49,862 nucleotides of DNA, taken from Candidatus Binatota bacterium (GTDB lineage: Bacteria; Desulfobacterota; Binatia; UBA1149; CAITLU01). Position numbers and translations under genes: made by a program. Positions 6,530 through 36,018 of the stretch are shown here, piece after piece. Below the pieces are notes generated by a model. That model saw only the letters and a program-made list of their open reading frames with translations. It searched no databases and was not told the origin of the DNA. Position 1 is the stretch's first letter. Every line of letters begins with the position of its first letter. The stretch lies in NCBI GenBank assembly GCA_024276575.1, contig JAJRWY010000005.1:1-49862 (forward strand), given 5' to 3'.

Positions 6530-7379
6530 AAGCGCGGCTGGCCGCTTTCGAGCCGTAGTGGCGCGCATCACCATCCGCAGGATATTCGGCAACGTCGTGC
6601 TGGCCGCAACCCTACTTGCACGTGCGGTCGTTGCTGATGCCGGGACCATCGGATTCCAGATTCAGACCTCGGTGACTACGGGTCCGGGTGTCTCTGTAGA
6701 AGTAACTCTCACGCACACCGGGGACGAAACCGCTAGAACCGTCGTCCCTAGCGTCATGCTTCGCGGCCGTGAGGTGGCCGGCAAACAATTGGAGCGCCTC
6801 CACCCCGGCCAAAGTCATCGCTGGAAGATCGAGTTCCAGAAGGAAGACCTACCACCCGGGGTATACACACTGATCACCCGGGTGGTCTACTCAGACGCCA
6901 ATGCCTACCCGTTTGAGGTAACCGCAGCTACGCCTTTCAACGTCGCGATGGATCCGCTGCCGCGGGTCACAGGACGGCTCCTACTCCCCTCCATCCAAGG
7001 GAAGAGTAGCACCACCGCTACGTTGACTCTCTCTTTCCCCGAGACTCGCAAGGGACCTTTCAAGATAGAGTTGGTGCTACCTGCTGGGTTGCATGCTCCT
7101 AAAACGAAATTCACTATTACCCCGGACGGGACCCGTAGTTCGACCACTTCGTTGCGCCTGAGCAACCGGAGCTTGCTTGCGGGCACGCGCATAAATCTCT
7201 TCGCTCTCGTAACCAACCAAGGCACTCCTCCACAGACCGATCTCATTCAAGGAACGCTGCGCATCATTGAGAAGAAGAAGTCCCTGACTACTGGATTCTT
7301 TGTAAAGCTAGCACTGGGCGCAGGGTTGAGTTTCGCCCTGCTCGAACTCATCTGGGCGCTAAGGAAGCTGAAGAAATGA
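6510..7379 (+). CDS. Membrane-anchored beta-sandwich protein, function unknown
   Basis: I do not recognise a named family. The 289-aa protein has an N-terminal hydrophobic signal or anchor segment (residues about 24-44, VVLAATLLARAVVADA). An extracytoplasmic stretch follows, rich in beta-strand-like Thr/Val/Gly sequence, and resembles two Ig-like or CARDB/NPCBM-like sandwich domains (about 45-140 and 145-255). It ends with a C-terminal membrane helix (about 263-283) and a positive tail (LRKLKK). The start ATG lies inside the end of rng with AGGAACAG just upstream. Its stop overlaps the start of the next gene (ATGA). The tight coupling suggests it assists the large membrane protein that follows, but that is inference. 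Confidence 0.75.
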   Translation: MTSQPAKSAAGRFRAVVARITIRRIFGNVVLAATLLARAVVADAGTIGFQIQTSVTTGPGVSVEVTLTHTGDETARTVVPSVMLRGREVAGKQLERLHPGQSHRWKIEFQKEDLPPGVYTLITRVVYSDANAYPFEVTAATPFNVAMDPLPRVTGRLLLPSIQGKSSTTATLTLSFPETRKGPFKIELVLPAGLHAPKTKFTITPDGTRSSTTSLRLSNRSLLAGTRINLFALVTNQGTPPQTDLIQGTLRIIEKKKSLTTGFFVKLALGAGLSFALLELIWALRKLKK

Positions 7380-8677
7380 ATCGCAGGCTTTCCCTGACAA
7401 TCACTGAGTACGCGCTGGCCTGCCTGGCAACGTTTTACTTGCTCTACATCTACCCGTGGCCCGAGTTGCTCAGTCCAACCGTAACTGCCGGCGGCGACAT
7501 GGCCTCTCACTACTACCCGGCCTGGATCATGCACAATGAACTTCTTCCGCACGGACAGGTTACCGGGTGGACGATGGGCAACTACGCCGGATTTCCCATC
7601 TTCCATTTCTATTCTACGTTCCCCTTCGTCCTGATCGCTGCGCTCGGCTACATCTTTCCGATGGAGCAGGTGTTCAAGCTCGTGACCTTGCTCGGGCCGA
7701 CTACGCTGCCCTTGGCAGCGGCATACTTCTTTCGCAGCCTCGGCTACACGCGCGGGGGTTCCGTAATTGCGGCGGCCTCCGTGCTGCCAGTGCTGTTCCA
7801 ACAAGGGAACTCGATGTGGGGCGGCAATCTTTCAAGTGTACTCGCTGGCGAGTTCTGCCACTCTATCGGGATCTCCTTGTCGCTGGTCTTCCTAGGACTG
7901 TTTCACCGTACCGTAAACGGGCGCGGATCATGGATCGGTTCCGCGTTCCTGCTTGCGGCAACCGGTTTGAGCCACGCATTCGCGTTCATGGCGGCTCTAT
8001 GGTCGGCCCTCTTTTACGTCTGGCCCCGGCGAACGACGATCAAATATGGACGTTACGCTGCACCGGTATTCCTGCTGAGCTTCCTACTACTGTGCTTCTG
8101 GGGTTTGCCGCTGGCCCCGCGCGTACAATTCACCACAGAGTTCAACCCGGTTTGGCACATCAACGATTGGAAGACTGTGGTCCCAGAGCTGCTCTGGCCG
8201 GCCAGTCTGCTGGCCCTGGCCAACTTATTCCTACTGCTGCAGCGGCCCCGGCAATTCGAAGAGTATCCCAAGACCCGCGTGATTCTCGGCTTGCTGGCAG
8301 CGGCCGTCATCGGCGGTCTATGGTATTCTATCGACTTCAGTGCCGGCTTGAGCCAGGGGCCAGCCTGGTACACCGGGGCTACCACTGCCTTCGTCCTAGC
8401 TTGGATCGCCGTCCCCGGCCGGAGTTTTTGCGCCGACCGTCAAGGCATGTTGCTGTTTACCTTTTTTGGTGCAGCGTTCCTTTACGCGGTGGTGCCCGAT
8501 GTCGGTTTCCCCGACATACGTTTCGTTCCCCTCGGACAGTTTTTCGCAGGCTTTCTCGCCGCCGACCTGTTGACCTGGCTCGGATCGAAGTTCAAGTTCA
8601 AACTTCTTTACGCGGTGACGATTGCGCTGGCCACCATAGCCTGGACCAACGATCATATCGGTTACGTACCGTCCTAG
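7376..8677 (+). CDS. PTPS-related polytopic membrane protein, N-terminal part (ends at in-frame TAG)
   Basis: This is the first 433 codons of a large polytopic protein resembling the 'PTPS-related' membrane family (distantly glycosyltransferase-like or YfhO-like). Early loop motifs GGDMASHYYPAW and NYAGFPIFHFYSTFPF are typical, as is WGGNLSSVLAGEF. About ten hydrophobic segments follow. The frame stops at TAG 8675-8677, but homology-like sequence continues in the same frame without a gap (LKWNYSGYEGK), so the natural protein would be about 944 aa over 7376-10210. A TGG codon would give VPSWLKWNYSGYE, which looks right for the family. Causes could be a real nonsense mutation, readthrough or a sequence error. 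The gene is coupled to the upstream gene by ATGA. The substrate is unknown; a role in cell-envelope glycan or lipid handling is plausible. Confidence 0.8.
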   Translation: MNRRLSLTITEYALACLATFYLLYIYPWPELLSPTVTAGGDMASHYYPAWIMHNELLPHGQVTGWTMGNYAGFPIFHFYSTFPFVLIAALGYIFPMEQVFKLVTLLGPTTLPLAAAYFFRSLGYTRGGSVIAAASVLPVLFQQGNSMWGGNLSSVLAGEFCHSIGISLSLVFLGLFHRTVNGRGSWIGSAFLLAATGLSHAFAFMAALWSALFYVWPRRTTIKYGRYAAPVFLLSFLLLCFWGLPLAPRVQFTTEFNPVWHINDWKTVVPELLWPASLLALANLFLLLQRPRQFEEYPKTRVILGLLAAAVIGGLWYSIDFSAGLSQGPAWYTGATTAFVLAWIAVPGRSFCADRQGMLLFTFFGAAFLYAVVPDVGFPDIRFVPLGQFFAGFLAADLLTWLGSKFKFKLLYAVTIALATIAWTNDHIGYVPS

Positions 8678-10210
8678 CTCAAATGGAACTACTCGGGCTA
8701 CGAAGGAAAAGTCACCTGGGATTTGTTCAAACAGATCAACGATCACGCTCGCGGAGATATCAACAGTCCGCGAATGGTCTTCGAGCATTCACAACAACAC
8801 AACAAGTTCGGAAGTTCTCGCGCCTTCGAGAACCTTCCTTTTTTTGCGGGACGATCCACGCTGGAAGGAGTATTCCACCAAGTTTCACTCAACTCTCCTT
8901 ACGTCTTCTACATTCAATCCGAAGTCTCCGAGAAGACCTCGGGGCCTTTCGCCCAATACACTTACATGCGCCTCAACCCCGATGCAGCGCTACCGCATCT
9001 TCGCCTATACAATGTGAGCACGATCGTGGCGGTCTCGGCAAAGGCCCGGCAGGCCTACGACGCTCACCCTCGGTTCAAGAAGACTTTTTCGGCCGGAGGC
9101 TATTCAATTTACGAAATTGTCGACGAACCGACCGGATACGTCGTAGCAGCTGAGAATGAACCGGTCCTCTACGAGGGAGACGACTACAAGCTCGCTTTCT
9201 ATCGATGGTTCAAGCATCCGGAGCTGCTGGATATCCCCATGGTCCCGGAGAAAATAATCGGCGAACAAGCCGGCCGCTCTTTCGCGCTCCGAACCGACAC
9301 GCCTGCACACCTCCCGAGAAATCCGTACCCCACGAAGTGCGAGGTCAAATCTCACCTTGAGCAGCAAAGAATCAGTTTCGACACGAGCTGCCCCGGACGC
9401 CCACACATAGTCAAGGTCTCTTATTTCCCTCGTTGGAAGTCTCTCGACGGATCACCCGTCTACCCGGTTTCACCGGGATTCATGCTCGTGTACCCGCCGC
9501 AATCGCACTTCGAACTATATTACGGAAGAAGGTTACTAGACTGGTTCGCGCTCGGCCTCACGTGGTTGGGCTTAGCCTGGGCGCTGATCTCGGTTTTCAG
9601 TCGCCGTGCTTCCGAAGCTGGGATCGACGCGTTGAGCAGGATATTGGGACCGGTCTTTGCAGCTATGCAGCAGCGGCGACGCGTTCTCTCCACCCTATTG
9701 TTGCTACTATGCATCTTGCTCGCTTTCGGAAGCCGTTACGCGTTGAAGAAGCCCGACGATACCTTGCATAAGCAGGCTCAGGAAGCTTACAGACAGCGTG
9801 ATTTCGAACGTGCAGTCGACCTGCTCTCTCGCTGGACCGCAGAAGACAAGGACACCTTCAAACAGGCCACGGCTCTGTATCAATTGGGCGTAAGCCAGAG
9901 TGAACTAGGCAACCACGCCGCCGCCGTCATGGTTCACGAGAGACTTCGCTTCGACTTCCCCAACGTAAACTACGGAGCGGGTACTCTCTTCCACTTGGCA
10001 AGGAATTATTCAGCGCTCGGACTTTCCGAAAAATCCCGGAAGGCCGCCGCCTTGCTCGATAAAGATTTCGGTGACAGCAACTGGACGAAGCGGCTCAAAC
10101 GGGAAGAAGCGCAGTTGTTCGATCGCGACTCCAGCGTAGATGCCGAGTCTCAGCCTCCGGATGCCGAAGCCCCCCTCGACTCCGGCAAGGCTGGCAATGG
10201 AGGGTCATAA
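8678..10210 (+). CDS. PTPS-related membrane protein, C-terminal part with TPR domain (downstream of in-frame TAG)
   Basis: This continues the preceding gene in the same frame after TAG 8675-8677. The first ATG in this part is at 8723-8743, so an independent shorter product is conceivable. The beginning (RAFENLPFFAGRSTLEGVF, then YIQSEVSE) is the extracytoplasmic domain usual after the membrane region in this family. Two membrane helices follow (about 9540-9600 and 9685-9745). A cytoplasm- or periplasm-facing tail carries at least two TPR-like helical repeats (AYRQRDFERAVDLLSRW, ALYQLGVSQSELGNHAAAV) and ends in an acidic, Pro-rich tail. The last 61 bases overlap the convergent gene at 10150. 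The whole would be a fused membrane-plus-TPR protein. Confidence 0.75.
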   Translation, partial: LKWNYSGYEGKVTWDLFKQINDHARGDINSPRMVFEHSQQHNKFGSSRAFENLPFFAGRSTLEGVFHQVSLNSPYVFYIQSEVSEKTSGPFAQYTYMRLNPDAALPHLRLYNVSTIVAVSAKARQAYDAHPRFKKTFSAGGYSIYEIVDEPTGYVVAAENEPVLYEGDDYKLAFYRWFKHPELLDIPMVPEKIIGEQAGRSFALRTDTPAHLPRNPYPTKCEVKSHLEQQRISFDTSCPGRPHIVKVSYFPRWKSLDGSPVYPVSPGFMLVYPPQSHFELYYGRRLLDWFALGLTWLGLAWALISVFSRRASEAGIDALSRILGPVFAAMQQRRRVLSTLLLLLCILLAFGSRYALKKPDDTLHKQAQEAYRQRDFERAVDLLSRWTAEDKDTFKQATALYQLGVSQSELGNHAAAVMVHERLRFDFPNVNYGAGTLFHLARNYSALGLSEKSRKAAALLDKDFGDSNWTKRLKREEAQLFDRDSSVDAESQPPDAEAPLDSGKAGNGGS

Positions 10211-15030: not shown

Positions 15031-16163
15031 ACCCCCTACTCGAACGTTTCAGGCCCTTGTTCCATCCACGCGGAGTAATAGTCTCCGGCGTATCGTCTCA
15101 TCCGGGCAAGTTCGGTAGCGTAGCCTACCACAACCTGCTTCGTTACGGCTTCAAAGGAGAGGTCTTCCCCATCAATCGTGAGGGAATTACCTGCCTCGGA
15201 CGGCCCACTTTCAAAACAATCGCCGAAATCGAGCCGGGCAGCGCTGACCTCGTTTTGCTATGCACCCCCGCAGCGGTCAACGAACAACTTCTGCGAGACT
15301 GCGCGGCGGTCGGCGTACGCGCCGCTTTCGTCGCCAGTGGAGGCTATGCCGAAGGCGGCGAGGAAGGCCGGCGGCGGCAGTCTCGATTGGTCGCGTTGGC
15401 GAAAGAACTCGGGATGGTTGTGGCCGGCCCTAACGGGCAGGGATTGGTTTCCACCGGCGTCTCAATGTGCGCACAGATCGTGGCCCCTTACCCTCCGCAA
15501 GGATCAATCTCGTTGGCAAGCCAAAGCGGCAACCTAGCTTCCAGTTTGATGAACTACGGATGCCTGACCGGAGTAGGATTCAGCAAAGTAGTATCGAGCG
15601 GGAACTCGGCCCAACTGGCCATCTCGGACTACCTGGAATACTTCGCCGCCGATCCGGAGACTTCGGTCTCGCTGTGCTATGTCGAGGGCATAGAAGACGG
15701 CCGGCGTTTCTTCGAAATTGCGCGTAGCCATAGCGCGGACAAGCCTCTGGTTATACTGCGCGGTGGGAGCAGTGAACTGGGCAAGCGCGCTGCCTCCAGC
15801 CACACCGGAGCCTTGGCCTCCAACGAGGCTATCTTCTCCGGTCTTTGCCGCCAGGCCAACTTATGCCGCGCTCTCAGTGTCGAGGAGGCCTATGAAGCTG
15901 CTGCCACCTTCGCCACCCAGCCACTACCGCGCGGGCGCCGGACTCTGATCTTTACCGTAGCCGGTGGCTGGGGCGTGCTGACAGCCGACGCCTGCGCCCA
16001 GGCCGGGCTGGAGCTAATCCCCTTACCCGAGGATTTACGGAGCAAATCGACGCCCTGGTTCCCGCACGTTGGAGCCGCTCGAACCCCATCGATCTGGCGG
16101 GTGGAGAGACTCGTGACACTATCCCCGAAGTGCTCGACCTGGCTGCTTCTCATTCCGAGGTAG
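15027..16163 (+). CDS. ADP-forming acyl-CoA synthetase, alpha subunit, N-terminal part (frameshifted)
   Basis: This is the alpha subunit with a CoA-binding Rossmann domain (FHPRGVIVSGVSSHPGKFGS), then succinyl-CoA ligase-like domains (VAGPNGQGLVSTG, SLASQSGNLASSLMNY, SHTGALASNEAIF). The family sequence is continuous to LELIPLPEDLR at about 16040. The frame then runs into unrelated residues, while the expected continuation (EQIDALVPARWSRSNPIDLAGG) appears one frame away. Restoring one G in CGGAGCAA (CGG GAG CAA) rejoins the two halves, so a single-base deletion at about 16039-16041 is the likely cause. Everything from 16041 to the stop at 16163 in this frame is spurious. The catalytic phospho-histidine (SHTG) lies in the intact part. 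Confidence 0.8.
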   Translation: MNPLLERFRPLFHPRGVIVSGVSSHPGKFGSVAYHNLLRYGFKGEVFPINREGITCLGRPTFKTIAEIEPGSADLVLLCTPAAVNEQLLRDCAAVGVRAAFVASGGYAEGGEEGRRRQSRLVALAKELGMVVAGPNGQGLVSTGVSMCAQIVAPYPPQGSISLASQSGNLASSLMNYGCLTGVGFSKVVSSGNSAQLAISDYLEYFAADPETSVSLCYVEGIEDGRRFFEIARSHSADKPLVILRGGSSELGKRAASSHTGALASNEAIFSGLCRQANLCRALSVEEAYEAAATFATQPLPRGRRTLIFTVAGGWGVLTADACAQAGLELIPLPEDLRSKSTPWFPHVGAARTPSIWRVERLVTLSPKCSTWLLLIPR

Positions 16164-35366: not shown

Positions 35367-35744
35367 TCAGGCGTCCCCAATACGTCCCAACTGCTTGGCA
35401 ATACGATCCAAAACCCCATTGATAAAACTTGCCGAGTTTACATCGGCGAACTCCTGCGCGATTTCAACAGCCTCATTGACAACGACTGCGGCAGGAACTT
35501 CCGGAGAACACATCAACTCACTAACCGCCAACCGCAAGAGATTGAGGTCTACGCGGGACAAGCGAGGCAACTCCCAATTATCTGAAGCTGCGTCGATCAA
35601 GCGGTCTAGCTCCGCCCTCTTCTGCAGAACCTGGGTTACAATCCACTCCGCGAACTGCCGCTCTTCAGCGGTGACGGGCCCGGAAGCGAGATGCTGCCAG
35701 TAAAGCTCGAATGCCGGATCAGACGACTCGCCCATCAACTCCAC
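35367..35744 (-). CDS. nusB: Transcription antitermination factor NusB (coding part downstream of an in-frame TAG)
   Basis: NusB pairs with NusE (S10) to bind boxA and promote rRNA antitermination. This ORF (GTG 35744 or ATG 35735, 125 aa) carries the core: NWELPRLSRVDLNLLRLAV, then the conserved NEAVEIAQEFADVNSASFINGVLD. It lacks the family's N-terminal arginine-rich helix. That helix lies directly upstream in the same frame (RRRGREAALQLLY) and is separated from this part by a single TAG at 35745-35747, where family members usually have Gln. The true gene is therefore 35367 to 35801 or 35816, interrupted by a stop. A truncated product would lack the RNA-binding arm. Confidence 0.85.
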   Translation of the reverse strand: MELMGESSDPAFELYWQHLASGPVTAEERQFAEWIVTQVLQKRAELDRLIDAASDNWELPRLSRVDLNLLRLAVSELMCSPEVPAAVVVNEAVEIAQEFADVNSASFINGVLDRIAKQLGRIGDA

Positions 35745-35816
35745 CTAATATAGAAGCTGCAAGGCGGCTTCCCGGCCTCTGCGCCGCCCTCCCCGTTTCA
35801 CCCTAGCCCGCATCAT
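35745..35816 (-). pseudogene. nusB: 5' part of nusB, upstream of the in-frame TAG
   Basis: Reading back from 35744 in frame: TAG, TAT, CTA, CTT, CAG, and so on, giving RRRGREAALQLLY before the stop. This is the RNA-binding first helix of NusB. The likely start is GTG 35801 (MKRGGRRRGRE). ATGs at 35813 and 35816 lie inside the left end of repeat element B, and one of them may now serve as the start. Changing TAG to CAG would restore LLYQVELM, a normal NusB sequence. Confidence 0.75.
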
Positions 35817-36018
35817 TCATGAGACCTCGTCGCGATAGTCGCAAGCGCGGGTGAGAGCGGCCAGATCGGGCCACGTGTGGCGTTGTGACCTGCAGGCATA
35901 GTGACACTAGGTCGGGACCGTGGGGCCCGCGAGCCCGCGCAACGGGCGAACGAGCACGGGCCGGGATTGCAGGCAATTGAGGCTCGTAGCAGAGGTTTCA
36001 TGAAAAATGCCGGTTAGA
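35801..36018. repeat. Inverted-repeat (MITE-like) element, copy B, between ribH and nusB
   Basis: The element has inverted ends of about 35 bp: left CCTAGCCCGCATCATTCATG, then AGACCTC; right, read on the other strand, TCTAACCGGCATTTTTCATG, then AAACCTC. The inside (about 150 bp) is G+C-rich with several smaller inverted repeats. It carries no gene. It fills the 274-base gap inside the rib-nusB-leuS operon, and its left end contains possible nusB start codons. Related copies: A (4638), D (12760), F (27622). Confidence 0.7.

Follow-up and report, generated by a model that had tools for sequence, protein, structure and literature searches.

The nusB locus

The window analysed here, i.e., the whole stretch of 49,862 nucleotides, carries a ribH-nusB gene pair whose nusB frame, on the minus strand, reads MMRARVKRGGRRRGREAALQLLY, is interrupted by a TAG codon, resumes with VELMGESS and then stays open up to the stop codon at 35367-35369. 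The coordinates of this and of the other features are reported in Table 1.

Table 1. Features of the window related to the interruption of nusB and to other lesions of coding frames
Feature	Position	Strand	Remarks
In-frame TAG in nusB	35745..35747	-	Gln in 27/29 relatives, Lys in 2/29
nusB frame, interrupted	35367..35801	-	start most likely GTG 35799-35801 (predicted)
125-aa ORF behind the TAG	35367..35744	-	starts at the GTG directly after the TAG; without the N-terminal arm
Dispersed repeat of ~215 bp, MITE-like	35803..36017	.	terminal inverted repeats of ~26 bp (21/26 identical)
Second in-frame TAG in the window	8675..8677	+	splits a membrane protein of ~930 aa; Trp in both relatives compared
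Apparent 1-base frameshift, ADP-forming acetyl-CoA synthetase-like gene	16040..16065	+	frame runs on to ~16488; exact base predicted

In profile searches, the frame read through the TAG matched TIGR01951 over residues 11-143 with 133.6 bits, well above the curated cut-off of 88.35, and the Pfam family NusB (PF01029) with 121.8 bits. When the part following the TAG was searched alone, the TIGR01951 score dropped to 114 bits and the first ~25 positions of the model were lost, which indicates that the TAG splits one gene. The match is therefore full-length only on reading through, and an uninterrupted frame including the N-terminal arm does not exist in this sequence. The TAG is truly present in the assembled sequence and lies within one continuous nusB frame, as the initial annotation had proposed. 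The product resembles known NusB proteins in its sequence, in the ribH-nusB gene order, in its arginine-rich N-terminus, in the RRRGREAALQLLY motif and in every conserved block located 3' of the stop. It differs from them in two respects: a near-invariant Gln is replaced by the in-frame TAG, and a MITE-like repeat abuts the start codon.

This repeat fills the gap between ribH and nusB, with arms at 35803-35828 and 35992-36017 whose terminal inverted repeats read about CTAGCCCGCATTATTCATGAAACCTC and GAGGTTTCATGAATAATGCGGGCTAG, and it ends one nucleotide before the GTG that, being aligned with the GTG starts of the relatives, is most likely the native start of nusB. Two in-frame ATGs are located further upstream (35814-35816 and 35811-35813); since the repeat ends just before the GTG, these ATGs belong to the element. 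Dozens of copies of about 180-230 bp are present in the genome (at least 43 entries, including the window's own copy, with 40 of 291 candidates scored), whereas ~0.9 Mb of two relatives, like the nusB loci of the other relatives, yielded none. The repeat looks like a MITE. Copies are also found at many contig ends.

Conservation of nusB and search for a second copy

At the position of the TAG, 27 of 29 relatives of the same class carry Gln (CAG or CAA), the other two carry Lys, and none carries a stop. The expectation of a Gln at this site, put forward in the initial annotation, thus agrees with the relatives, and their codons also support the proposed one-step change, the passage from CAG to TAG being a single C-to-T step. 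More generally, nusB is present in 56 of 58 relatives and is intact in all 56 with a match; a TGA apparently interrupting the gene of one of them (G049) was rejected, since it lies upstream of the start of that gene.

No second nusB was found in the bin, where the only other match to the NusB domain is an RsmB-like frame of 507 aa, and no alternative copy of the nusB locus was found on the other contigs of the genome. A scan of a contig database with nusB returned no match, and the same scan with LeuS returned distant matches only, none above 58% identity, of which many came from deltaproteobacterial MAGs.

In-frame stops across the draft genome

Over 1.01 Mb, or 23% of the genome, a coding-potential scan, evaluated in part by eye, and alignments to two relatives disclosed about 20 in-frame stops that interrupt conserved genes: about nine TAG, about ten TAA and one TGA. 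The TAG codons interrupt nusB, the membrane protein gene of the window (now split into ORFs 7376-8677 and 8723-10210), ileS, thrS, clpB, mrp, thiL, an AsmA-like gene and a sigma-54 regulator. TAA interrupts, among others, the genes for a 3-hydroxyacyl-CoA dehydrogenase (HADH), a thiolase, a CzcA-type RND pump, a molybdopterin oxidoreductase and an ArsR-methyltransferase, and the single TGA lies in the thiolase gene. In 11 genes, family profiles or PDB alignments continue across the stop, namely nusB, ileS, thrS, clpB, mrp, thiL and the genes for the 3-hydroxyacyl-CoA dehydrogenase, the thiolase (across two stops), the ArsR-methyltransferase, the RND pump and the molybdopterin oxidoreductase. 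The gene ileS is universal; its sole copy in the bin contains one TAG and reaches 925.6 bits.

The relatives served as a control, by means of a filtered tblastn, because an unfiltered tblastn that took every six-frame ORF as a query produced chiefly antisense artefacts; a coding-potential scan of the relatives was rejected as a control, because antisense ORFs of the GC-rich DNA made up most of its output. In two of them (G003 and G006), no stop was found in 172 alignments covering 56,420 residues, while the same test applied to the genome under investigation revealed three stops at conserved residues in 39,917 residues.

With this codon usage, random substitutions should produce TAG, TAA and TGA in proportions of about 51:27:22 percent. 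There is no excess of TAG among the surveyed stops, and TGA, at 1 of ~20 against the predicted ~22%, is under-represented. The residues replaced by TAG vary, including Gln, Trp and others. When the interrupted genes are classified by function, core genes account for 6 of the 9 TAG cases and for none of the 11 TAA/TGA cases, in a small set whose classification was post hoc and partly by eye.

Lesions of other kinds can also be observed. The acetyl-CoA synthetase-like gene of the window shows an apparent one-base homopolymer frameshift, placed at about 16,045-16,060. The thiolase-like gene (L064:6698-7987, G000:C32) contains two different in-frame stops (TGA 7444 and TAA 7006), and a phosphotransferase-like (APH-like) gene (L126:2070-3179, G000:C259) contains two in-frame TAA. 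A literature search on premature stops in MAGs retrieved no paper matching the whole topic.

In-frame stops and contig overlaps

Neighbouring contigs of this genome overlap by exactly 141 bases, a hallmark of de Bruijn assembly at k = 141. Two of the TAG codons lie precisely at such junctions: in thiL (C2:141-143) and in the AsmA-like gene (C281:141-143), the middle base of the TAG, i.e., base 142, is the first one following a 141-bp exact overlap, with contigs C24 and C87, respectively. Since the assembly graph branches at the stop base in both cases, an alternative base was probably present in the reads. In this way, comparing the location of a stop with the k-mer overlaps of the contigs can reveal a variant of the assembly graph even without the reads.

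Overall, 2 of about 50 base-142 positions falling in coding DNA create in-frame stops, as compared to ~2e-5 per base elsewhere in coding DNA, and this share fits the ~3% of random substitutions that are nonsense. The same base-142 positions are evenly spread over the first, second and third codon positions (17/18/15), a distribution that fits random errors, given that real strain SNPs favour the third position; contig ends due to coverage gaps would, however, likewise be spread evenly. The nusB TAG, in turn, is located mid-contig, with no visible branch.

Origin of the TAG in nusB

Since stops of all three kinds are scattered over many genes, one of which is essential and present in a single copy, the TAG of nusB most likely stems from an error of assembly or consensus. 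According to this explanation, which we regard as the probable one, the T is a wrong or minority base that is untypical of the organism, and the nusB of the population is intact and retains its Gln. Random substitution errors or minority bases would have entered the consensus, the assembly being a fragmented, metagenome-style one built from short reads; at nusB, such a T would have replaced the C, so that the Gln codon CAG would be read as TAG. Similar lesions do affect genes that cannot be lost (the single-copy ileS, as well as thrS and clpB), and the variety of residues replaced by TAG is what errors predict. The draft resembles known cases of nonsense artefacts in MAGs both in the scattering of three kinds of stops over unrelated genes, essential ones included, and in having stops on bases where the de Bruijn graph branches, next to overlaps of 141 bp; it differs from them in that no branch is visible at nusB. 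For the latter reason, we infer the erroneous origin of the nusB TAG from the other stops, whose origin it would share.

Some observations do not fit this explanation equally well. The concentration of TAG in core genes is not predicted by simple random error, the scarcity of TGA also speaks against it, and the homopolymer frameshift and the two genes carrying a pair of stops could reflect real decay or a local low quality just as well as random error. Even so, the occurrence of stray stops of all kinds across the draft, in essential genes too, makes the nusB site unremarkable. It is on this point that the initial annotation falls short: it was right about the Gln, the one-step change, the loss of the N-terminal arginine-rich arm upon termination at the TAG and, as far as the bin is concerned, the search for a second intact nusB, but it did not consider the stray stops in the rest of the draft. 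A single in-frame stop in a draft genome thus calls, as a caution, for a genome-wide census of stop types.

A genuine and recent nonsense mutation comes second, and we consider it rather unlikely. In this case, the population would lack a full-length NusB, or would produce only the 125-aa fragment restarted at the GTG; since this form is devoid of the RNA-binding arm, it would be null or nearly so for boxA binding. The C-to-T change is the commonest natural transition, and the event would have to be young, the frame being intact on both sides of the TAG. The bin contains no other nusB, and the MITE-like insertion at the start of the gene might have removed the native ribosome-binding site or the coupling with ribH. 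The genome may, moreover, hold real pseudogenes, such as the thiolase gene with its TGA and TAA and the APH-like gene with its two TAAs. Even though a knockout of nusB had been deemed surprising in the initial annotation, it would be less so than claimed, as the gene is dispensable in Escherichia coli, where, according to PMC4807359 (with reference to Taura et al. 1992), strains with a disrupted or deleted nusB remain viable but are cold sensitive. On the other hand, equally clean stops interrupt further core genes, ileS and thrS among them, which cannot all be null, nusB is intact in every relative with a match, and inspection of the sequence upstream of the restart GTG disclosed no evident Shine-Dalgarno motif. 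The loss of full-length NusB, if real, would be notable.

The reading of the TAG as a sense codon is remote. It would require that, in this lineage, an amber suppressor or inefficient termination place Gln, or a mixture of residues, at the site, yielding a full-length NusB, and we consider this very improbable. Equally improbable is a broader form of it, in which the lineage would tolerate or decode TAG in many core genes (nusB, ileS, thrS, clpB, mrp) through an undetected suppressor or a weakened RF1, still using TAG as a terminator. Amber recoding is known from pyrrolysine and from the TAG-to-Gln codes of phages and protists, and the in-frame TAG at a Gln position of a conserved gene recalls these systems. 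The distribution of the stops points in the same direction, with TAG in nusB, ileS, thrS, clpB, mrp and thiL, and TAA or TGA in dispensable genes. However, the machinery that the initial annotation had suggested looking for did not emerge: none of the 47 typed tRNAs has a CUA anticodon in this ~94% complete genome, and, with the profiles of the N- and C-terminal domains of PylS, TIGR03912 gave no match and TIGR02367 only 19.4 bits against a cut-off of 178.15. A suppressor tRNA might lie in the missing 5.8% of the genome, given that at least one normal tRNA (Asn) is missing too. RF1 (prfA) is, nevertheless, intact, and an in-frame TAG considered as a recoding signal in this gene was rejected, lying just upstream of the prfA ATG.

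In a recoded genome, TAG would be depleted as a terminator and/or RF1 would be lost; here, TAG terminates 155 of 524 long ORFs (~30%) in the surveyed part, vs. 113 of 448 in the relatives, and remains a common terminator. Recoding would also leave interruptions by TAG alone, whereas TAA or TGA interrupt the genes for HADH, thiolase, the RND pump, the ArsR-methyltransferase and the molybdopterin oxidoreductase, a further difference from the known systems. Lastly, the TAG at 8675 replaces a Trp, and two TAGs (thiL and the AsmA-like gene) fall on assembly branch bases. If real, the decoding of amber codons in core genes would be notable. An odd, low-scoring tRNA (C63:74023) was also considered as a tRNA-Pyl or suppressor and rejected, being an Arg(UCU) tRNA without D-arm. 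This tRNA-Arg(UCU)-like gene (L142:9024-9086; G000:C63:74023-74085) has its D-arm cut to a few bases, while the acceptor, anticodon and T arms are intact and the CCA is encoded; it may be a pseudogene, the remnant of an attachment site or a true D-armless tRNA.

Finally, the GTG immediately 3' of the TAG might suggest a programmed stop-restart, i.e., a regulated junction yielding two forms of NusB, but this can practically be set aside, since the arrangement is conserved in none of the 29 relatives, no ribosome-binding site is evident, and GTG, GTC or CTC are common at the same codon in relatives without any stop.
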